Shown here one piece after another: positions 22,496 through 39,798 of a DNA stretch of 39,798 nt. Made by a program: the position numbers and the translations under genes. The DNA comes from Kiritimatiellota bacterium (GTDB lineage Bacteria; Verrucomicrobiota; Kiritimatiellia; CAIQIC01): NCBI GenBank assembly GCA_026398385.1, contig JAPLSZ010000122.1, forward strand, positions 1-39,798. Reading direction: 5' to 3'. A model generated the notes under the pieces. That model did not search any database. It was not told the origin of the DNA and was given only the letters and a program-made list of their open reading frames with translations. The first letter of the stretch is position 1; the number at the start of each line of letters is the position of its first letter.

Positions 22496-22516
22496 TCTGA
22501 ATAGACGGAGATGAAA

Positions 22517-24031
22517 ATGAAAAATCGGCAATACGTGCTCGGCGTGGACATCGGCACCAGCAGCACCAAGACGCTGCTGGTCGCCGCGGATGGCCGGATC
22601 GTGGCGGAGACGACGGCGGCGTATCCGCTCTATTCGCCCAAGCCCGGCTGGAACGAGCAGGATCCGGCGCACTGGTGGCAGGCGACGATCAAGACCGTCC
22701 GCGCCGCGCTCAAGCAGTCGGGCATCGAACCGGCCCGCATCGCGGGCCTTGGCCTCTCCGGCCAGATGCACGGCAGTGTATTTCTGGACGCGCGGGGCCG
22801 GGTCCTGCGAAACGCGCTGCTCTGGAACGATCAGCGCACCGCCCGGCAATGCGCCGACATCACGGCGGCCGCCGGCGGCACGAAGGGCCTGATTGCGCTG
22901 GTGAACAACGTCGCACTGACCGGCTTCACGGCGCCGAAAATCCTCTGGTTGCGGGATAACGAGCCGAAACTCTTCAAGCAGCTCCGGCAACTGCTGCTGC
23001 CCAAGGATTATATCCGCTATCTGCTGACCGGCGACTATGCCTCCGACGTTTCCGACGCCGCGGGCACACTGCTGCTCGACGTGCAGAACCGCCGCTGGAG
23101 CACGGCGCTGCTTCGTAAATTGGACCTCGCCCCGGAACTTTTTCCGAAGCTCTATGAATCGCCGGACGTCACCGGCACGTTGCATGCCGCGGCAGCGCGC
23201 GCGCTGGGCCTCGTCGCCGGCCTCCCGGTGGTCGGCGGCGCGGGCGACCAGCCCGCCGGCGCGGTCGGCATGGGCGTGGTGGCGGAGGGGATCGTCTCTG
23301 CGACGCTTGGGACCAGCGGCGTGGTTTTTGCGCACGCCGAAAAAATGGCGCCGAATCCCGCGGGCGTGTTGCAGAGCTTCTGTCACGCCGTGCCGGACAA
23401 GTGGTGCGTTTTCGGCTGCATGCTTTCGGCCGGCGGCTCACTCGAATGGGCCAAGGAGGCGCTGTACGCCGACACGCAACCGAAGTCCGGCAGCGTCTTC
23501 GACCGGATGGACGCCGACATCGCCGGTGTGCCCGCCGGTTGCGAGGGCTTGTTCTTCCTGCCGTATCTGGACGGCGAGCGCTGCCCGCACGCTGATCCGC
23601 TGGCGCGCGCCTGTTGGATCGGCCTCAACCGCCGCCACGGCCGCGCGGCGATGGCGCGCGCGGTGATGGAAGGCATCACTTTCGGCATGGCCGACCAGAT
23701 CGTGCTGATGCGCCAGCTCGGCGTGAAGGTCGCGGAAGTCCGCTGCGGCGGCGGCGGAGCGAGGAGCCGGTTCTGGCGGCAGCTCCAGGCCGACATCTAC
23801 GGCGCGACCACCGTCACCGTGGATTCGCCCAACGCCTCGGCCTATGGCGCGGCGCTGCTCGGCGGCGTCGGCGGCGGCGTCTGGGGCAGCGTCCCCGCAG
23901 CCTGCCGCATGACGCTCACGGTGCAGAACCGGCTCAAACCGTCCGCCCCGTCCGCCAGGTTCTACGGCGCCCGCCACACCCTCTATCGCACACTCTATCC
24001 GGCGCTCAAACCCACTTTTACAAAGCTGTGA
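22517..24031 (+). CDS. xylB: Xylulokinase-type FGGY sugar kinase
   Basis: 504 residues. ATG 22517 has GGAG six bases upstream; the ATG at 22511 abuts it and is less likely. The FGGY fold is complete: phosphate loop GVDIGTSSTKTLLV, then GLGLSGQMHGSVFLD and RNALLWNDQRT (XylB-type substrate signature), catalytic Asp in GGAGDQPAGAVGMG, and GGGGARSRFWRQLQADIYGA with NASAYGAALLG for ATP binding. The product would be D-xylulose-5-phosphate. Because the rhamnose cluster 6 kb away lacks a rhamnulokinase, another sugar substrate cannot be excluded, but the motifs favour xylulose. There is no xylose isomerase nearby. It converges with corA. Confidence 0.9.
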   Translation: MKNRQYVLGVDIGTSSTKTLLVAADGRIVAETTAAYPLYSPKPGWNEQDPAHWWQATIKTVRAALKQSGIEPARIAGLGLSGQMHGSVFLDARGRVLRNALLWNDQRTARQCADITAAAGGTKGLIALVNNVALTGFTAPKILWLRDNEPKLFKQLRQLLLPKDYIRYLLTGDYASDVSDAAGTLLLDVQNRRWSTALLRKLDLAPELFPKLYESPDVTGTLHAAAARALGLVAGLPVVGGAGDQPAGAVGMGVVAEGIVSATLGTSGVVFAHAEKMAPNPAGVLQSFCHAVPDKWCVFGCMLSAGGSLEWAKEALYADTQPKSGSVFDRMDADIAGVPAGCEGLFFLPYLDGERCPHADPLARACWIGLNRRHGRAAMARAVMEGITFGMADQIVLMRQLGVKVAEVRCGGGGARSRFWRQLQADIYGATTVTVDSPNASAYGAALLGGVGGGVWGSVPAACRMTLTVQNRLKPSAPSARFYGARHTLYRTLYPALKPTFTKL

Positions 24032-27954: not shown

Positions 27955-29160
27955 ATGACGGCGAATCCAATCCTGGGCGTGTGCTTTCACTGGCTGGGCG
28001 GGCTGGCGTCGGGCAGCTTTTACGTGCCCTATCGCGGCGTGAAGAAATGGGCCTGGGAGGTCTACTGGCTGGTCGGCGGATCCTTCAGCTGGATCATCTG
28101 TCCGTGGCTTTTTGCCTCCCTGATGACGAAGGACCTCCTGGGCGTGCTCGCGCAGCAGAGCGTGGGCACGCTGTGGTGGACCTACTTCTTCGGCGCCATG
28201 TGGGGCTTCGGCGGCCTCACCTTCGGCCTGACCATGCGCTACCTCGGCATGTCGCTGGGCATGGGCGTGGCCCTCGGCTACTGCGCGGCCTTCGGCACCC
28301 TGCTGCCGCCCATCTTCAAGATATTCATCCCCGCCATCCCGGTGCCGGAGACCATCGCGCAAATCGCAGCCACCACCCCCGGCCAGGTCACGCTGGCCGG
28401 CGTGGCCGTCTGCTTGCTGGGCATAGGCATCGCCGCCCTGGCTGGCTTCACCAAGGAAAGGGAGATGCCCGAGGCCGAGAAGAAGAAAGCCATCCAGGAG
28501 TTCAGTTTCTCCAAGGGCATCCTGGTGGCCACCTTCTCCGGCATCATGAGTTCCTGCTTCTCCTTCGCCCTGACCGCCGGCAACCCCATCGGCACGGCCG
28601 CGGCCGCGGCCAGAAACTCCACCCTGTGGACGGGTCTGCCCAAGCTTGTGGTGGTGCTGCTCGGCGGGTTCACCACCAACTTCGTGTGGTGCGTGATCCT
28701 CAACATCCGCAACCGCACCGGCTACCAGTATTTCAGCTCCACCCTGTGCGCGACCCCGCCCACGCGCGCGAGCGAGACCATCATCGAGACGGCCCTGGAT
28801 GCCCCCGGCGTGGAAGCCGTCGAGTGCGCCCCCGGCGGACGATCCGGCCATGGCGGCGAGCGCGTGCCGGTGCTGCCGAACTATCCGTTCTCCGCCCTGG
28901 CCGGTACCACCTGGTACTTCCAGTTCTTCTTCTACACCATGGGCGAGACGCAGATGGGCAAGTTCGGCTTTGCCAGTTGGACGCTGCACATGGCCAGCAT
29001 CATCATTTTCAGCACCATGTGGGGTTGGATCTTCCACGAGTGGAAGGGGTCGAGCTCCAAGGCCCACCGCCTGATTGCCTCCGGCATCCTGGCCTTGATC
29101 CTCTCGACCATCGTCATCGGCTTCGGCACCTGGCTGAAAAGTCAGATGGGCGCGCCCTGA
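27955..29160 (+). CDS. rhaT: L-rhamnose/proton symporter RhaT
   Basis: 401 residues, ten hydrophobic segments of the drug/metabolite transporter fold. The beginning MTANPILGVCFHWLGGLASG then SFYVPYRGVKKWAWEVYWL is the RhaT signature, as are FGGLTFGLTMRYLGMSLGMG and the central SFALTAGNPIGTAA. It imports L-rhamnose with H+ across the inner membrane. It is longer than E. coli RhaT (344) through an insert of about 40 residues near 265-310 (ALDAPGVEAVECAPGG...), a polar loop. First gene of the cluster, with its own promoter. Confidence 0.93.
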   Translation: MTANPILGVCFHWLGGLASGSFYVPYRGVKKWAWEVYWLVGGSFSWIICPWLFASLMTKDLLGVLAQQSVGTLWWTYFFGAMWGFGGLTFGLTMRYLGMSLGMGVALGYCAAFGTLLPPIFKIFIPAIPVPETIAQIAATTPGQVTLAGVAVCLLGIGIAALAGFTKEREMPEAEKKKAIQEFSFSKGILVATFSGIMSSCFSFALTAGNPIGTAAAAARNSTLWTGLPKLVVVLLGGFTTNFVWCVILNIRNRTGYQYFSSTLCATPPTRASETIIETALDAPGVEAVECAPGGRSGHGGERVPVLPNYPFSALAGTTWYFQFFFYTMGETQMGKFGFASWTLHMASIIIFSTMWGWIFHEWKGSSSKAHRLIASGILALILSTIVIGFGTWLKSQMGAP

Positions 29161-29174
29161 GTGGCAACGGTGTC

Positions 29175-29348
29175 ATGAAACGGATGAATCACGTCGAGCG
29201 CTTCCGGGCGGTGATGAACTTCCAGCCGGTGGACCGGCTGCCGCGCTGGGAGTGGGCCATGTGGTGGGACCAGACCATCGCCCGCTGGCACGGCGAGGGC
29301 CTGCCGCGGGAACTGGACTTCAGCAGAGAAAAGATCGGGGGTAACCCT
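29175..29348 (+). pseudogene. N-terminal fragment of a uroporphyrinogen-decarboxylase-family gene
   Basis: ATG 29175 opens MKRMNHVERFRAVMNFQPVD then RLPRWEWAMWWDQTIARWHG, the typical opening of the URO-D/cobamide methyltransferase superfamily as seen in PVC genomes. Sense is lost about 57 codons later, near REKIGG. The frame stays open to 29432 only as overlap with the next gene in another frame. A full member would be about 350 residues. A second, complete and different URO-D-like gene starts at once (29350), so this is a deleted first copy in a former tandem. Confidence 0.7.
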
Positions 29349-29349
29349 T

Positions 29350-30519
29350 ATGTCTCGCAAAGAAACCCTCACCGCCCGCGCGCGCGTGCTCAAGGCCCTC
29401 AACCACGAGACGCCAGATCGCGTGCCGATTGACCTGGGCGGCAACCAGACCGGCATTCACAAGAACGCATACCTTAAGCTGATCAAGCATCTCGGAATCC
29501 GGGACGATCTTCAGATCATGGATTCAGTGCAGCAATTGGCCAGGCCCTGCGAGGCGGTGCTGGAGCGGTTCCACGTGGATACGCGTTACATCGCCGCCGG
29601 GGCCGCGGCCGACTGGAAAGGCGGAATCGTTCGGACGATCCGCGAAGGTCGCGCGTGGCAGAACCTGACCGACGAGTTCGGCGTCTGCTGGTCCATGCCC
29701 GAAGACCAGGCCCTCTACATGGATATCACCCTCCACCCGCTGGCCGACGCGACGGTGGCTGAGGTCAGGGATTACCCCTGGCCCAGAGGGGACGATCCCG
29801 GTCGTTTTGCTGGATTGCGCGAGCGGGCCCTGCAGCTCCGGAAGGATACGCCTTATGCCGTGGTCAGCGGCATTTCGGGGGTGGTATACGAAACCTGCTG
29901 GTACCTGCGCGGCCTCGAACAGTGGCTGTGCGACCTCCTGACCAATCCAAACTTTTGCGAAGCGGTACTGGACCAGACCTTGAAATTCTGGCTGGATTGG
30001 TTCCGCGCGTTTCTTGACGAAGTGGGCGATGTCGTGGACGTGATCATGATCGGCGATGACTTGGCGGGGCAGGAAGGGCTGCTGTTCAGTCCCGCCGTGT
30101 ACCGGAGTCTGGTCAAGCCGCGGCATAAGAAGCTGGTGCAGTACATCCGTTCCCGGACGCAGGCGAAGATCTGGTATCACACGTGCGGGTCCTGCCTGGC
30201 GGTCATTCCGGACCTGCTGGACAACGGGATGCAGATCCTTAATCCGGTCCAGACCAGCGCGCGCAACATGGATCCGGCGGCGCTGAAGAACCGCTTCGGG
30301 CGCGACCTGGTCTTCTGGGGCGGCGGCTGCGATTCCCAGCACGTGCTGCCGCGGGGCACGCCCACGGACGTGTCCGCCGACGTACGGAAGCATGTGACCG
30401 CGCTGAAGCCGGGTGGTGGCTACGTCTTCAGCAACATCCACAACATCCAGGGCGAGGTGCCGCCGGAGAATATCATTGCACTGTATGATACGGCGTACGA
30501 ATATGGATTCTACGCGTAA
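29350..30519 (+). CDS. Uroporphyrinogen decarboxylase-family protein (likely methyltransferase or unknown)
   Basis: 389 residues from ATG 29350, with GGGGGT upstream. The URO-D/MtaA TIM-barrel fold shows RVLKALNHETPDRVPIDLGG at the start, DVIMIGDDLAGQEGLLFSP, KIWYHTCGSCLAVIPDLLD (His and Cys suited to bind zinc), LNPVQTSARNMDP and FWGGGCDSQHVLPRGTP. The last segment has the Cys that completes the zinc site in MtaA/CmuA-type methyltransferases. True heme-pathway UroD would have RQAGR near the N-terminus, which is absent. The gene is embedded in the rhamnose cluster between rhaT and the aldolase, so a link to deoxysugar breakdown is likely but its reaction is unknown. No corrinoid protein is encoded nearby. 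Confidence 0.82.
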   Translation: MSRKETLTARARVLKALNHETPDRVPIDLGGNQTGIHKNAYLKLIKHLGIRDDLQIMDSVQQLARPCEAVLERFHVDTRYIAAGAAADWKGGIVRTIREGRAWQNLTDEFGVCWSMPEDQALYMDITLHPLADATVAEVRDYPWPRGDDPGRFAGLRERALQLRKDTPYAVVSGISGVVYETCWYLRGLEQWLCDLLTNPNFCEAVLDQTLKFWLDWFRAFLDEVGDVVDVIMIGDDLAGQEGLLFSPAVYRSLVKPRHKKLVQYIRSRTQAKIWYHTCGSCLAVIPDLLDNGMQILNPVQTSARNMDPAALKNRFGRDLVFWGGGCDSQHVLPRGTPTDVSADVRKHVTALKPGGGYVFSNIHNIQGEVPPENIIALYDTAYEYGFYA

Positions 30520-30555
30520 CGAAATACTGCATCGGCTGCGGAGGAATAAACCCGC

Positions 30556-31638
30556 TTGAACACTACTGAATCGGCGCTGCTGGTCGAGATCGCTGCCCTG
30601 TCCCGGGAGTTTGGAACGCCGGACTTCGTCCGGGGCGGCGGCGGTAATGCGTCGTGCAAGTCGGCCGATACCCTGTGGGTCAAGCCATCCGGCAGGACCC
30701 TGGCGGGGCTGACGCCGGCCAGCTTCGTCGCGTTGGACCGCGCCCGACTGGGCGCGCTGTACGAGCTCCCGGTGCCCGCCGCGCCGCGCGCGCGCGAGGC
30801 GCTGGTGAAGGCTGCGCTGGCGGCCGCTGCGCGGCCGGGGCCGACGGCGCGGCCGTCCGTGGAGGCGCCGTTACACGACCTGTTGGCCGGGAGGTTCGTG
30901 GTGCACGTGCATCCGGCGCTGGTGAACGGGATGACTTGCGCACAACATGGGGCGGAGGTTTGCGCGCGGCTTTTTCCCGAAGCGCTGTGGGTGCCGTACA
31001 TTGACCCGGGCTACACGCTGTGTATGGGCGTGCGCGACCAACTCCACGACTACACGCGCCGGCACGGACGGCCACCCGCGCTGATTGTCCTGGAAAGCCA
31101 CGGCGTGTTTGCCACCGGCGACACCGCCGAAGGACTGCGGGCCGTCTTCCATGGGATGATGCGGGCGATGCAGGCGGAGTACGTGAAGGCCGGGGTCTCC
31201 CTGCGGCTTCCGGTCGGCAAGCCGCCCAGCGCGCAAGCGGCCGAATCCGTGCGGCAGGCGCTGCAAGCCCTGCTCGGCGCCGAGGCCGCCTGCGTGGCCG
31301 GGAGCGGGCCGTTCCGCGTCGCGCCGGGACCCATTTCGCCGGATCACGTCGTCTACGCGAAGGCGTATCCGTATGAGGGGCCGCTGACCGGCGAGGGCCT
31401 TGAGGCCTTTCGGGCGCGGCACGGCTACGCGCCGCTGGTATACATGACGGCGGCAGGGGTGTTCACGATCGGCGCGAGCCGGAAGAAGGCGGACTACGCC
31501 CTGGATCTGGCGCTGGACGGCGCACTGGTCCTCCAACTGGCGGAGGCGTTTGGCGGCATCCAGTACATGACCGAGCGAGCGCGCCTTTTCATCGAGCAGT
31601 GGGAAGTGGAGTCCTACCGGCAGAAGCAGGTAGGCTGA
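30556..31638 (+). CDS. Class II aldolase/adducin family protein, probable rhamnulose-1-phosphate aldolase
   Basis: 360 residues, from TTG 30556 with GAGGA 10 bases upstream. The N-terminal two-thirds is the class II aldolase fold: FVRGGGGNASCKSADTLWVKPSG, then zinc His pair in RFVVHVHPALVNGMTC and third His in VLESHGVFATGDTAEGL. The C-terminal about 120 residues (from PISPDHVVYAKAYPYEG) resemble the region that follows the aldolase domain in long rhamnulose aldolase/dehydrogenase enzymes, but no dehydrogenase is attached. It would cleave L-rhamnulose-1-phosphate to DHAP and L-lactaldehyde; this is inferred from its place directly before rhaA. Not close to E. coli RhaD, so no symbol is given. 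Confidence 0.8.
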   Translation: MNTTESALLVEIAALSREFGTPDFVRGGGGNASCKSADTLWVKPSGRTLAGLTPASFVALDRARLGALYELPVPAAPRAREALVKAALAAAARPGPTARPSVEAPLHDLLAGRFVVHVHPALVNGMTCAQHGAEVCARLFPEALWVPYIDPGYTLCMGVRDQLHDYTRRHGRPPALIVLESHGVFATGDTAEGLRAVFHGMMRAMQAEYVKAGVSLRLPVGKPPSAQAAESVRQALQALLGAEAACVAGSGPFRVAPGPISPDHVVYAKAYPYEGPLTGEGLEAFRARHGYAPLVYMTAAGVFTIGASRKKADYALDLALDGALVLQLAEAFGGIQYMTERARLFIEQWEVESYRQKQVG

Positions 31639-31664
31639 ATTCGAGAACGGAGAAGGAGCATAGC

Positions 31665-32936
31665 ATGCAAGCAAAGGTCAGGAAGGCTTACGCGCTGGCG
31701 CGGGCAGAGTACGCCGCGTTGGGCGTCGATACCGAGAAGGCGATCCGGAAGGCGCTGGCGATCCCCATTTCCATGCACGGCTGGCAGGCGGACGATGTCG
31801 CCGGCTTCGAGGTGCAGGCGGCCGGCGTCGCCAGCGGCGGCATCCTGGCGACGGGCAACTACCCGGGGCGCGCGCGCACGGGCGCGGAAGCGCGGGCCGA
31901 CTATGAACAGGTGCTGAAACTGGTGCCCGGCAGGCTGCGCCTCAACCTCCACGCCATCTACGCCGAAACCGGCGGCCAGGTCGTCGAGCGCGACGAGTTG
32001 CGGCCGCGCCATTTCGTGCAATGGATGGAGTGGGGCCGCAAGCACAAGGTGTGTCTCGACTTCAATCCCACCTTCTTCGCCCACCCCAAGGCCGACAGCG
32101 GCTTCACGCTTTCCAGCACGGATCCCGCGATCCGCAAGTTTTGGGTCCGCCACGCCATCGCCTGCCGCAGGATTGCCCAGGCCATGGCGAAGAGCCAGGG
32201 GGCGCCCTGCGTCATCAACCACTGGATTCCGGACGGGGCGAAGGATTTCCCGGCGGACCGTTGGACGCATCGCGCGCTCCTGACGAAGTCCCTCGACGAG
32301 GCGGTGGCCCGCGAGACGTCCGTGAACAAGACTCTGTGCGTGGATTTCGTCGAGAGCAAGCTGTTCGGCATCGGCAGCGAGGAGTACGTGGTCGGCTCCG
32401 CGGAGTACTACAGCAGCTACGCGCTGTCGCGCGGCCTCGGCTTCTGCCTGGACATGGGGCACTGGCACCCGACCGAAACGATCCACGACAAGCTGTCGGC
32501 GTTGCTGCCGTTCCACCAGCGGCTGCTGATCCACGTCAGCCGGCCGATGCGCTGGGACAGCGATCACGTGGTGGTCTTCAACGACGACCTCCGCCACCTG
32601 TTCCTGGAAATCCAGCGCGGGAACGCATGGCCGCGCGTGGCGTTGGCGACCGACTACTTCGACGCCAGCATCAACCGCATCGCGGCGTACACGATCGGGC
32701 TGCGCGCCACGCGCAAAGCCATCCTCTACGCCTTGCTCGACCCCTCGGCCACCCTGCGGCGCCTGGAAGCCGGTGGCGACAACGCGGGGCGGCTGGCGCT
32801 GATGGACGAGATGAAGACCATGCCGTTCGGGGCCGTGTGGGCGGCGCTGTGCGGCCGGGCGGGCGCGCCCGCGGACCACGCCTGGATGCGCGACGTCCAG
32901 CGGTACGAGCGCCGGGTGCTCAGCGCCAGGCGGTGA
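31665..32936 (+). CDS. rhaA: L-rhamnose isomerase
   Basis: 423 residues from ATG 31665 (MQAKVRKAYALARAEYAALG) with AGAAGGAG upstream. Strong match to E. coli-type RhaA by eye: ISMHGWQADDVAGFE, GGILATGNYPGRAR, RLNLHAIYAE, LDFNPTFFAHP, WIPDGAKDFPADR, VDFVESKLFGIGSEEYVVGS, LDMGHWHPTE, HVSRPMRWDSDHVV and DYFDASINRIAA. These include the Mn2+-binding Glu, Asp and His residues. Converts L-rhamnose to L-rhamnulose. Last plus-strand gene of the cluster; it converges with the GH95-like remnant. A 12-base palindrome CGCCGGCCGGCG lies right after its stop (32937-32948). Confidence 0.96.
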   Translation: MQAKVRKAYALARAEYAALGVDTEKAIRKALAIPISMHGWQADDVAGFEVQAAGVASGGILATGNYPGRARTGAEARADYEQVLKLVPGRLRLNLHAIYAETGGQVVERDELRPRHFVQWMEWGRKHKVCLDFNPTFFAHPKADSGFTLSSTDPAIRKFWVRHAIACRRIAQAMAKSQGAPCVINHWIPDGAKDFPADRWTHRALLTKSLDEAVARETSVNKTLCVDFVESKLFGIGSEEYVVGSAEYYSSYALSRGLGFCLDMGHWHPTETIHDKLSALLPFHQRLLIHVSRPMRWDSDHVVVFNDDLRHLFLEIQRGNAWPRVALATDYFDASINRIAAYTIGLRATRKAILYALLDPSATLRRLEAGGDNAGRLALMDEMKTMPFGAVWAALCGRAGAPADHAWMRDVQRYERRVLSARR

Positions 32937-35949: not shown

Positions 35950-38900
35950 TCAACGATGCAGGCCTCCATAGTTCAACAGATTGCGCAGCAGCCGTTCGGC
36001 TGCCGGATGGGAGCCGAGGGTTTCGCGGATCAGCAGGGTGTTCAGGATGAACCGCCCGCTACCCGATTTGTATACCGCCAGCATCAAGCCGGACGAGTAG
36101 TCCTGCGAGGCTTTGATGGCACCGGCCACAGCCTCGGCGGGCGGATCCTGACCTGCCAACACCAGGCCGGGAATGATCTCGCGATAGAATGTATAGTCCA
36201 TCAAGCCGCCGCTGGGCAGGCCGTCGAAGATCGGATGGCGCTTGGCCCACTCGTCCTTCAAATAAAGCCCGCCCCACATATCCAAGTAGGAACTCGATCC
36301 CTTGTTCGCCAGCGGCAACCAACCGAACGGATGATCGCCCTTTTTGAGAACCTCCGGCGCCAGGAAGATGGCCGTCGCTCCGCGCTGAACCCGCCGCCAC
36401 AGTTCCTCGAGCGCCGGCGTCGCAGGCGGCGTCTTGGAAACGAGGATCACCTCGCGCGGCGTCGCCTCGCCGGCGGCTGTTAGCGTCCGGCAACGAATGC
36501 CGTGCTCGCCGAGCCACTTCGCCAACCCGGCGTCATCGCCGGCCAGCACGACCTCGGTCTTGACCGCCGGCATGTCGGCCGGATCGGTCACGTAGAACCC
36601 GGTCTCGCCGCCCGTCGCGGCGGCACCGTGTTCGAAGGAGGCGAGAAAACGGTAGCGTCCGGACGGGCCATTCACGACCACGTCTTCCGCGAAGATGGGC
36701 AACGCCAAGGGCGCTTCTTTCTCTGCAATGGTCACGCTCACGATCTTCTCGAAGATGCGCTGGTTTTGCGGTCCGACCACCAGCAGTTTGACCGGATAGT
36801 CGCCGGGTGCCAGCGCGTCTTCGTTGGCCAGCACCGCCTCGAAGCGGATGCGTGCGCCCCGATAGACATTGACCGGTTCGGCGAACAGGCACAGCCGCAA
36901 CGGCGCGAGGCCCTCGAACATCGCGTCCACCGTGCCGGGCTTCAGTTCGCGGAACGTCGTGGTTAGCCCTTCGCCGCAACTGACGTGGTCGTTCATGCCG
37001 GTCAGGCTGTAACCGACGATGTTCGGGTTGGCGCGAATCGCATTGAGGCCGAGCGTGCGCTGGCCGGCCATCTTGCGCAGGCTTTCGGCGAAGAAATCCT
37101 CCGGGCGCGCATATAACTCGTCGAGCTTCCACTGTTTCCAGTCTGCTAGATAGCGGTCCAGCTTGTTCCGATAGAACCGCGCGTCCTCGCCCTCGGTCTT
37201 GCCGAGTCGCTCGAAGTGGCGGGTCGTGCGCCAGAGGTCCACCGCGCTGCCGATCCCGTATTCTGACAGGAATGTGCACGGGCGCTTGGAGTACACCGTC
37301 TCGCCTGCGGTGCCCGGCAACAGCATCGTGCCTCCGCCTGCACTGCGCAAGGCCTGAACCGTGCCCGCCGTGTGCGGCACGCGCGGGTAGCGGTGCTCGT
37401 CGGCCACGGGATCCGCCCATTCGACCGACCCCGGATTGGCCAGGGTGCCCGAACGTCGCTGTCTGACTTTCAATTGCACGTAGCGGGTGAAGGTGGCCGT
37501 GTTGGGCTTTTCGCCCGGCACGAGCCAACCGCTCGACCATGGCCCGGCGGGATTCTGCCCGTGGGGGAACTCCGCAGCCAAGTCGAACACGCGGCCTGCG
37601 GCGGATTTGATGGTCGCCGTCAGCGCCGTGCTGTCGCTGCCGTAGTACCCGTCTCCCCGGCCAACCACGAAATCAATGGTGTCATCCTTCGCCAAGGCCA
37701 ATTCGCCCGTGTGTGTGGCCGTGTTAGGCTTGCCACCGATGTTGAGTTCCGCGTCAAACCGCGGCCGGCTGTTGTGGAGGATATGCACGTCGGTGGTGGC
37801 CTTCGCCAAGCCGTCGAACCTGGCGGCGAATTGATAGCGACCCTCGGCCGGTGCCGTCCAGCGGACGACGCTGTATTGGCCATGAGGTCCCGGATGCAAC
37901 GCCACCTGCCGCGGTGGCCAGGTGAAATTAAACGGCGTGGGGACCGGTTGGTCGGAAGGGTTGCGTGCAGCCCACGGTTCGCGATCGGCCGGGCTGCGCC
38001 AAACGTCGAGTTTCGAGAATACTTCGTCGCCCGCATCTCCCCCGCCCGTCTCATCATAGCGACCGCTGTTGAGAAACACCATGCGTGTCGGGTCGAGCTT
38101 GCGGACCAGCGGTAGCGAGTTCGCCGCGAGCCAGAAATGCGGCGTGGCCTTGACCTCGTTGAGGAGACCCCAGATCACCACGCTCGGATGATTGCGGTCG
38201 CGGCGGATCAACTCGGAGATCGAGCGTTCCCAACGCTCGGCCAGTTGCGGCGAGTCCTGTATCGGCCACGACGCGAACGATTCTTCATAGACCATCAGCC
38301 CGATCTCGTCGCACAGGTCGAGCTGATACCGCTCCGCACCGCCCCAGATGAAGCGGATCATGTTGAAGCCCATCACCTTGAGGTCTAACAAATCGCGCCG
38401 GGCCATGTCGGGATCGGGCGGCAGCTTCAGGCCGACCGGGAAATGATTGCAGGTGTGCGTCGAACGCAGGAAAACGCGCCGGCCATTGAGGCGGAAATAG
38501 CCATTCTCGAAGCGGAAGTCACGGAAGCCGCAACGCACCGATTGTTCATCATCGCCCAAACGGGCAGTGACGCGATAGAGAAACGGATCGTTCAGCTCCC
38601 ACAGCCGCGGCTGGTCGAGATTCACCTCGGCCTCAACCCGCGTGTCGCCCGGCGGCAGTTCCCGCTCGATGGCCACCTCGCGCAGCGTTTCGCCGCTGGC
38701 CGCAGGCGCAACGGTGAACTCCAGGCGGCCGCGCGAATTCTTGATAGACGCGTTGCGCACGTTGGCTTGAATCCTGATCGTGCCGGTCTTCGGGTCGGCT
38801 TGCGCGAAGAGATCCTCCACCCGCACCGCCGGTGTGGCTAACAACTCCACCGATCCGGTGATTCCGCCGTGGTTGTATGCCGCGCCCGCGTTATAAGGAA

Positions 38901-39414
38901 TCACGCGGGCCTGCTTCGGCGTTTCATTCAGCACGATGCCATCAATCCGCTCGTGGCTCGGGTTGAGCACGCGCACCGCCAGCAGGTTTTTCGCGCCGGC
39001 GCGGATGGAGTCGGTAACATCTATCACAAATGGCGTTTCGCCACCCTCGTGCCCGCCGACGCGCATGCCATTGAGCCAGACTTCCGCCAGATAATCCACC
39101 GCCCAGAACCGCAGCAGATGCCGCCCGCCCGCATGCGGATTGGTCGGCGCTTCGAACTCGCGCCAGTACCACGCCACGCCGTGGTAGCCGGGGAACGCGT
39201 CCTGGATGATCCACGGCACTTTCGTCGGCTTCGCCCCGGGAACCGGCACGCCGGGCCACTTTTGCTCGCGCCCCTCGTTTTTCGGGTCGGTGGCCAACCG
39301 CCAAGCGTCGCCGTCGAGCGTGAGCATGGAACCCGCCACGTCGGCCATCACGGCATGCGCCAGCAGCATCATTCCGAACGTCAGCATCCCTAACAGTTTC
39401 TTGTTTGTCTTCAT
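35950..39414 (-). CDS. Secreted GH2 glycosidase with inserted beta-sandwich and C-terminal amidotransferase-like domain
   Basis: 1154 residues; ATG 39414 has AAGGAAG just upstream. Signal peptide 1-24. Sugar-binding jelly roll about 30-195 (AEVWLNGMRVGGHEGGETPF), Ig-like GH2 domain about 195-300, barrel from about 300. Acid/base Glu420 is in NHPSVVIWGLLNE. Nucleophile Glu718 is in TFLSEYGIGSAVD. Between them (about 495-645) lies an extra module with VALHPGPHGQYSVVRWTAPA, LNIGGKPNTATHTGELALA and DGYYGSDSTALTATI. The last about 170 residues (REVILVSKTPPATPALEELW ... RFILNTLLIRETLGSHPAAE) resemble the glutamine-amidotransferase-like domain seen at the end of other GH2 relatives. Activity could be beta-galactosidase, beta-glucuronidase or similar. 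A paralogue lies directly upstream. Confidence 0.88.
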   Translation of the reverse strand: MKTNKKLLGMLTFGMMLLAHAVMADVAGSMLTLDGDAWRLATDPKNEGREQKWPGVPVPGAKPTKVPWIIQDAFPGYHGVAWYWREFEAPTNPHAGGRHLLRFWAVDYLAEVWLNGMRVGGHEGGETPFVIDVTDSIRAGAKNLLAVRVLNPSHERIDGIVLNETPKQARVIPYNAGAAYNHGGITGSVELLATPAVRVEDLFAQADPKTGTIRIQANVRNASIKNSRGRLEFTVAPAASGETLREVAIERELPPGDTRVEAEVNLDQPRLWELNDPFLYRVTARLGDDEQSVRCGFRDFRFENGYFRLNGRRVFLRSTHTCNHFPVGLKLPPDPDMARRDLLDLKVMGFNMIRFIWGGAERYQLDLCDEIGLMVYEESFASWPIQDSPQLAERWERSISELIRRDRNHPSVVIWGLLNEVKATPHFWLAANSLPLVRKLDPTRMVFLNSGRYDETGGGDAGDEVFSKLDVWRSPADREPWAARNPSDQPVPTPFNFTWPPRQVALHPGPHGQYSVVRWTAPAEGRYQFAARFDGLAKATTDVHILHNSRPRFDAELNIGGKPNTATHTGELALAKDDTIDFVVGRGDGYYGSDSTALTATIKSAAGRVFDLAAEFPHGQNPAGPWSSGWLVPGEKPNTATFTRYVQLKVRQRRSGTLANPGSVEWADPVADEHRYPRVPHTAGTVQALRSAGGGTMLLPGTAGETVYSKRPCTFLSEYGIGSAVDLWRTTRHFERLGKTEGEDARFYRNKLDRYLADWKQWKLDELYARPEDFFAESLRKMAGQRTLGLNAIRANPNIVGYSLTGMNDHVSCGEGLTTTFRELKPGTVDAMFEGLAPLRLCLFAEPVNVYRGARIRFEAVLANEDALAPGDYPVKLLVVGPQNQRIFEKIVSVTIAEKEAPLALPIFAEDVVVNGPSGRYRFLASFEHGAAATGGETGFYVTDPADMPAVKTEVVLAGDDAGLAKWLGEHGIRCRTLTAAGEATPREVILVSKTPPATPALEELWRRVQRGATAIFLAPEVLKKGDHPFGWLPLANKGSSSYLDMWGGLYLKDEWAKRHPIFDGLPSGGLMDYTFYREIIPGLVLAGQDPPAEAVAGAIKASQDYSSGLMLAVYKSGSGRFILNTLLIRETLGSHPAAERLLRNLLNYGGLHR

Positions 39415-39438: not shown

Positions 39439-39798
39439 CTAATTGGTTTGGAAACCCATGGCTTTTAGTTGCTCATCAGAATTGACCGGCAGTTCGGCCA
39501 GGGGCTGATCCGTGCCTTGCGCGGCATAGTTGAGCATATTGCGCAGCAGCCGATCGGCGACAGGAAGGCTGCCCAGGCAGTCGCGAATTCGGAAGCCATT
39601 GAGGATGAAGCGTCCTGCTCCCAGACGGTCGATCGAGATCGCGGCACCGGCCCTGCTGGAACCATCTCCTCCAGTAGCCATGATGGCACCGCAGACGGCT
39701 TCATCAGGCGGCTGCTTACGGGAGGAGAAAACCATGCAGAAAATCCCCCGATAGAAGCGGTCGTCCATGATCCCGCCACACGGCAGACCATCGAAAAT
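39439..39798 (-). CDS. C-terminal part of a second GH2-type protein (partial)
   Basis: The frame is open to the right edge and ends at 39439. Its last about 118 residues align by eye with the C-terminus of the next gene: IFDGLPCGGIMDDRFYRGIF against PIFDGLPSGGLMDYTFYREI, and GAGRFILNGFRIRDCLGSLP against GSGRFILNTLLIRETLGSHP. Both end in a RLLRN-x-LNY motif, so this is the amidotransferase-like end domain of a paralogue. Here a longer tail follows (LAELPVNSDEQLKAMGFQTN). The stop is 24 bases before the GH2 ATG, so the two are in one operon and look like a tandem duplication. The catalytic domain is outside the window. Confidence 0.8.
   Translation of the reverse strand: MFDGLPCGGIMDDRFYRGIFCMVFSSRKQPPDEAVCGAIMATGGDGSSRAGAAISIDRLGAGRFILNGFRIRDCLGSLPVADRLLRNMLNYAAQGTDQPLAELPVNSDEQLKAMGFQTN

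Follow-up and report, generated by a model that had tools for sequence, protein, structure and literature searches.

The window analyzed here is positions 1–39,798 of contig JAPLSZ010000122.1 from a Kiritimatiellota bacterium (assembly GCA_026398385.1; 39,798 nucleotides), and our subject is UroA, a protein of the uroporphyrinogen decarboxylase (URO-D)/MtaA superfamily encoded within a cluster of L-rhamnose genes. The cluster lies on the plus strand and begins with RhaT, a member of the L-rhamnose/H+ symporter family (27955–29160, 401 amino acids). It continues with the stump of a second URO-D-superfamily gene, UroB (29175–29348, 58 codons), UroA itself (29350–30519, 389 amino acids), a class II aldolase resembling RhaE/RhaD (30556–31638, 360 amino acids), and the L-rhamnose isomerase RhaA (31665–32936, a start that the codon model favored over 31599). 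UroA was assigned by its URO-D profile (PF01208, 69.6 bits against a gathering cut-off of 23.9), its orthologues, its conserved residues, and a profile match to the MtaA structure 4ay7.

The initial annotation had recognized RhaT, an aldolase, and RhaA, and profile scores bear out all three. RhaT reaches 499 bits with NF010024, above the equivalog cut-off of 468. It carries an insertion of about 55 amino acids relative to PF06379, which matches in two stretches; this two-part match is common to many RhaT genes of genomes that encode UroA, even where RhaT does not stand beside it. RhaA, which also matches PF06134, scores 591 bits with NF002203 (equivalog cut-off 572) and 541 bits with TIGR01748, below the cut-off of 585, which its orthologue in genome G252 likewise misses. 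The aldolase matches Aldolase_II (PF00596) with 62.6 bits against a cut-off of 22.2. Its matches to the bifunctional rhamnulose-1-phosphate aldolase/dehydrogenases (TIGR02632/PRK08324) are partial, confined to their aldolase part, and far below the cut-offs, and it lacks their dehydrogenase half. One homologue belongs to the rha operon of G252; another is found in G302 on a 3.3-kb contig that reads RhaT, aldolase, RhaA, with no UroA between them. The window thus holds an ordinary set for L-rhamnose uptake, isomerization, and aldol cleavage. Compared with the known L-rhamnose catabolic operon (rhaT, rhaA, rhaB, rhaD/E, rhaM), it has the same RhaT, RhaA, and RhaE/RhaD-like aldolase, while RhaB and a RhaM-family gene are found elsewhere in the genome, the kinase on another contig; what is added here is a URO-D-superfamily gene and the stump of another.

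That one URO-D-type protein is complete and the other a remnant, as first annotated, was confirmed by the PF01208 match of UroA and by comparison with a relative of the same family, G003. Over 48 residues, the stump shares 85% identity with the N terminus of an intact 347-amino-acid protein, UroB (L067:7597–8640), and corresponds to about its first 50 codons. In G003 the order is UroB, a xylose-isomerase-like TIM barrel, a Gfo/Idh oxidoreductase, UroA, and RhaM. Because the stump keeps only some 50 of 347 residues, and because the intact UroB stands before two genes and UroA, the window looks like the product of a deletion that took most of UroB and the genes after it; the junction may also be an assembly error. 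The frame of the stump runs on open into the start of UroA, as a working fused or truncated gene would require, but the few residues kept and the arrangement in G003 fit a deletion, and we regard a functional stump as very improbable.

The cluster contains no rhamnulokinase, and the initial annotation had raised two explanations: that the kinase is encoded elsewhere, with xylB as a weak candidate, or that the URO-D protein stands in its place. The absence holds for the window but not for the genome (3.66 Mb in 376 contigs, 87.7% complete). When we searched the whole genome with the rhamnulokinase model, only XylB matched within the window, weakly (51 bits), whereas contig C172 encodes RhaB (G000, C172:18376–19751, equivalent to L022:9377–10752). 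TIGR02627 gives it 436 bits for residues 38–453, plus an N-terminal piece in another frame, against a cut-off of 528; whole RhaB copies of relatives score 477–486 bits, also below the cut-off and far above the next families. The gene is frameshifted near codon 39 in the assembly, while five relatives of the family match in one frame; the frameshift may be real or an assembly error. RhaB was present in all six family genomes searched and never shared a contig with RhaA, so the separation of rhaA and rhaB is usual in this family (some contigs in the comparison are short, those carrying RhaA in G001 and G002 being only about 6 kb). XylB (22511–24031, plus strand) lies outside the rhamnose system. 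What speaks for it is membership in the FGGY kinases and a position 4 kb upstream of RhaT, but it scores 539 bits with the xylulokinase equivalog TIGR01312 (cut-off 380) and 59.5 bits of the required 528 with TIGR02627, and it is kept at 89% identity in the sister genome G001, which has its own RhaB. XylB is a poor candidate for the rhamnulokinase of the cluster, a role to which we give almost no weight. Given RhaB on C172, its presence throughout the six family genomes, and the identity of XylB, the kinase is not missing: it is, with near certainty, encoded elsewhere in the genome.

The kinase-less cluster and the frameshifted rhaB could still be taken to mean that UroA performs the kinase step, or that rhamnose is used by a route without a kinase. 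The operon of G252 (L071, minus strand) contradicts this: it consists of RhaT, UroA, an isomerase-like protein, the aldolase, RhaA, and RhaB, followed by a gene resembling AraC-type regulators. Its RhaB is full-length (482 bits with TIGR02627), its RhaT passes NF010024, and its RhaA passes NF002203. Since UroA and RhaB occur in this one operon, UroA is not a substitute for the kinase. The occurrence of RhaB in every family genome searched points the same way, as do the fold matches of UroA, which are decarboxylases and methyltransferases, with no kinase among the matches listed. Replacement of the kinase is thus ruled out for all practical purposes.

We asked what accompanies UroA in other genomes. 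In a sample of 288 genomes of the phylum, 7 carry UroA at 70%–100% identity, below which the next match falls to 41%. Searching public genome contigs with six UroA queries yielded 191 confirmed relatives, of which the best 80 were kept; together with loci from the numbered genomes (G), and after removal of 5 duplicates, this gave 82 UroA loci, with flanks of up to 10 kb that were often shorter, and longer in the window. RhaT lies directly upstream of UroA on the same strand in 20 of these 82 loci, a count that includes L148 and L149, which have identical UroA and a RhaT match of only 175 residues, and the window, where the stump intervenes. At least one of RhaT, RhaA, RhaB, RhaM, or GH106 is found within the flanks in 31/82 loci, and in 25/82 when flanks are taken at 1.5 kb. 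When genes were called by a codon model and Pfam families were counted among the 25 commonest, RhaT was the most frequent family upstream of UroA (18/79), and GH106 the most frequent downstream (5/73), with RhaA in 3/73. At L072, UroA is surrounded by RhaM, an RbsD/FucU protein, GH106, and GH95. The records of UroA relatives come from metagenome-assembled genomes of Planctomycetes, Phycisphaerae, Aminicenantes, Hydrogenedentota, Armatimonadetes, and Nitrospiraceae. On a tree of the UroA loci, the 20 rows with RhaT are spread over the main branches, and explaining the label takes at least 10 changes, of which well-supported branches force 5. At the genome level, 56 of the 57 UroA genomes tested encode RhaT, versus 42 of the 288 sampled from the phylum; within that sample it occurs in 7/7 genomes with UroA and in 35/281 of the others (Fisher P = 9e-7). 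These counts serve as a guide, since related genomes are not independent samples and the remaining UroA genomes belong to several phyla.

An isomerase-like protein also recurs with RhaT, RhaA, or UroA (L071:8184–9671, L134, L195, L196, and L203); it gives weak matches, below the cut-offs, to L-arabinose (AraA) and L-fucose (FucI) isomerase models.

The association extends to URO-D proteins that are distant from UroA. Members of a second lineage, about 25% identical to UroA, stand directly before RhaT paralogues. One is found in the window's own genome on C57 (L206:6994–11476), in the order URO-D, RhaT, alpha-L-fucosidase (GH29), and RhaM-family mutarotase, and others lie beside RhaT in G004, G104, G199, G211, G319, and G325. 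A third lineage, also about 25% identical to UroA, adjoins RhaT in G001, together with another URO-D gene and a class II aldolase, and in G302. We compared the 30 best RhaT loci from UroA genomes with 30 RhaT loci from the phylum sample. A URO-D gene adjoins RhaT in 13 of the former, once on a weak match, and in 6 of the latter, where 5 of the genes belong to the second lineage and the remaining one is UroA. As a control we used 23 other URO-D relatives (L044–L066, flanks of about 1.5 kb): three have RhaM, one of these also RhaT. Seven of the 23 controls (L073–L079, 37%–41% identical) show no RhaT, RhaA, RhaB, RhaM, GH106, or aldolase in longer stretches. The three relatives with RhaM nearby (L057, L060, and L062) are 39% identical to UroA over part of the length of UroA. 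Within the window's genome, where URO-D models give 13 matches in 3.7 Mb (up to 22 in genomes of the family), we examined eight of these loci, and two have RhaT, namely C57 and the window.

Several observations weigh against so close a connection. For 51 of the 82 UroA loci, that of the sister genome G001 included, no tested rha gene is nearby, and two further members of the family, G003 and G004, have no RhaT beside UroA. Conversely, we inspected 20 stretches around other RhaT genes, mostly from UroA genomes in which RhaT and UroA stand apart: RhaA is encoded in 13 of them, UroA in a single one, at a distance of 11.7 kb. Nonetheless, the locus survey and the co-occurrence of RhaT led us to reject a chance neighborhood of UroA and rha genes. 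The initial annotation would have been undermined had URO-D-like and rha genes shown no recurring link; such a link does recur, in several lineages. Its proposal of an altered route involving the URO-D protein can thus be kept in part: UroA appears to have a role in handling such sugars, in addition to the standard route and not in replacement of its kinase. We conclude, with a probability of roughly 0.85, that UroA works in the use of 6-deoxyhexoses (rhamnose or fucose), and its coupling to these operons, as a genuine extra component, is well supported. Open-licence articles in PMC, searched mostly by title and the start of the abstract, gave no description of a link between URO-D proteins and rhamnose or fucose genes, and yielded no article on the demethylation of methylated rhamnose; the coupling of URO-D-superfamily proteins to 6-deoxyhexose permeases is real and, as far as these searches show, undescribed.

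The fold of UroA is that of the URO-D superfamily. Its AlphaFold model has a mean pLDDT (predicted local distance difference test) of 94.5 and aligns to structures of both uroporphyrinogen decarboxylase (UROD) and MtaA with Z scores of 26–28; Foldseek lists MtaA in its first row. Profile searches of the PDB also gave MtaA as best match (4ay7, E = 9e-9) and found CdmB (9rui, E = 0.0026). The UROD alignments start at about residue 118–135 of the profile. In the profile alignment, HTCG of UroA corresponds to HICG of MtaA, and H364 to the Cys of PGCGI. The His and Cys of HICG and the Cys of PGCGI are the zinc ligands of MtaA. H277, C279, and H364 are invariant in all 82 aligned UroA loci; one of the two patterns used in the scan contained the HTC motif, and its conservation is thus partly selected. 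UroB does not contain the HxC motif. UroA has the overall fold of MtaA, the methylcobalamin:coenzyme M methyltransferase (4ay7, 4ay8), and by alignment the HxC portion of its zinc site; it differs in having His for Cys as third ligand by alignment, in the lack of any corrinoid gene found beside it, and in overall sequence. Structural alignments give 18%–20% identity to MtaA structures, below the >25% identity to a characterized member that an excerpt of PMC10418091 gives for membership in the coenzyme M methyltransferase group (SCMT/Mlp), and the mtaA_cmuA model yields 51 bits against a cut-off of 235.

The Pfam match, the fold shared with UROD, and the many loci without a tested rha gene could suggest a heme-pathway uroporphyrinogen decarboxylase, or an unrelated gene placed here by chance. 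Against this stand the adjacency to RhaT over several phyla and in other URO-D lineages, the near-universal presence of RhaT in UroA genomes, and a best PDB profile match to MtaA and not to UROD. The conserved C-terminal His of HemE/UROD is also found in UroA; the UROD row of the profile alignment has no counterpart of HxC. Moreover, stronger URO-D matches exist elsewhere in the genome, the best on C310, and the context of UroA is sugar use, not heme. We consider either version highly unlikely.

Which reaction UroA catalyzes is a separate question, and here our preferred answer is tentative: corrinoid-linked demethylation of O-methylated 6-deoxyhexoses. RhaT would import an O-methylated rhamnose or a related O-methyl 6-deoxyhexose. 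UroA, as a methyltransferase with a metal site, presumably zinc, formed by His277, Cys279, and probably His364, would take the methyl group off the imported sugar and transfer it to cob(I)alamin bound by a corrinoid protein whose gene lies elsewhere and which a RACo-type activator would keep reduced; the freed sugar would then go to RhaA, RhaB, and the aldolase. The URO-D superfamily includes O-, S-, and halogen-demethylases, according to an excerpt of PMC10418091. The corrinoid O-demethylases and dehalogenases OdmB, VdmB, MtvB, MtoB, and CdmB belong to this superfamily, and the reaction proposed here for UroA is likewise the removal of a methyl group from an ether; the first four are likened to UroA by description only, CdmB by its profile match. 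Their known substrates are methoxylated aromatics or haloalkanes, handled by MTI, a corrinoid protein, and MTII, in the excerpted text of PMC13222342, which also states that CdmB works without zinc; the context of UroA, in contrast, is sugar.

Both partners that the demethylation reading calls for, a corrinoid protein and a reductive activator, are encoded in the window's genome. On C172, a 207-amino-acid MtgC/MtbC-like corrinoid protein (166 bits, below the cut-offs of the models) lies beside RACo and DUF1638; rhaB is located on this contig too, separated from them by other genes. The RACo_C_ter domain was found in 27/28 and 49/50 UroA genomes, that is 76/78 (78 of the 82 were examined), versus 105 of the 288 genomes of the phylum sample and 1 of 14 controls. 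The corrinoid-binding domain PF02607 occurs in 26/28 UroA genomes.

A number of points tell against methyl chemistry. PF02607 is also present in 9 of the 14 control genomes and says little alone. The RACo background is drawn from the window's phylum only, while several phyla contribute UroA genomes. RACo accompanies URO-D relatives in general, being present in 49/53 genomes with a relative at E <= 1e-40 versus 56/235 others. Neither the window genome's own corrinoid protein nor its RACo has a tblastn match (E <= 1e-5) at the UroA loci, unlike the methyltransferase clusters described in an excerpt of PMC10418091, which carry such genes. Because neither gene was found at the UroA loci and RACo follows URO-D relatives generally, the link between UroA and RACo is indirect, and RACo may act for other enzymes, with methionine synthase as one candidate. 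Within the protein, the Cys that is the third ligand of MtaA aligns with an invariant His, as in heme UROD, and Cys327 of UroA is present in only 28/82 loci. The structure search does not separate the two functions, since decarboxylases, with Z up to 27.8, score level with MtaA at 26.9. The HxC motif and the later His are kept in the RhaT-linked URO-D lineages, but also in paralogues of the same genome that are not beside RhaT, and thus HxC is not a mark of the RhaT link.

These points leave room for an alternative in which UroA acts in 6-deoxyhexose catabolism without methyl chemistry, as a metal-dependent TIM-barrel enzyme that isomerizes, epimerizes, dehydrates, or otherwise prepares an unusual deoxy sugar or its aldolase product. 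The operon evidence serves it equally. The failure to find a corrinoid gene at the UroA loci and the third metal ligand, unlike that of MtaA, favor it, as do neighbors that are sugar-converting enzymes (the isomerase-like protein, mutarotase, Gfo/Idh, and TIM-barrel proteins). On the other hand, the zinc-containing enzymes of the superfamily named in the excerpts of PMC10418091 and PMC13222342 are methyltransferases, and RACo is encoded in nearly all UroA genomes. We place this possibility close behind demethylation, which we continue to prefer. A broader proposal, that several URO-D lineages of Verrucomicrobia, Planctomycetes, and neighboring phyla have each been paired with RhaT-family permeases, acting as corrinoid-dependent O-demethylases on methylated 6-deoxyhexoses, with permease and demethylase travelling together, is a little less probable.

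Elsewhere in the window, the segment 21204–27763 is syntenic with a stretch of G001 (C420, L213), with FBA, XylB, a SerA-like gene, and M50 at 72%–89% identity; the rha cluster was not found in that stretch. Close to the contig end, an open reading frame on the minus strand (39439–39768) resembles by eye the C-terminal end of the GH2-like protein at 35950–39414, and may be a second copy truncated where the contig stops. In another genome, G005, a stretch of C22 (L031) carries a second RhaA, 59% identical to that of the window, along with two zinc alcohol dehydrogenases, a LacI regulator, and a ribokinase; this RhaA is possibly for another sugar.

URO-D-superfamily genes are numerous in these bacteria, yet their Pfam name points to heme. 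The recurring link of several lineages to RhaT gives part of the group a testable role. If demethylation proves true, O-methylated deoxy sugars could be consumed without oxygen-dependent enzymes, and sugar O-methyl groups would be a one-carbon source for bacteria not known as methylotrophs. Tetrahydromethanopterin one-carbon genes are reported in Planctomycetes in an excerpt of PMC5020050, and the methyl groups released from such sugars would perhaps feed them.

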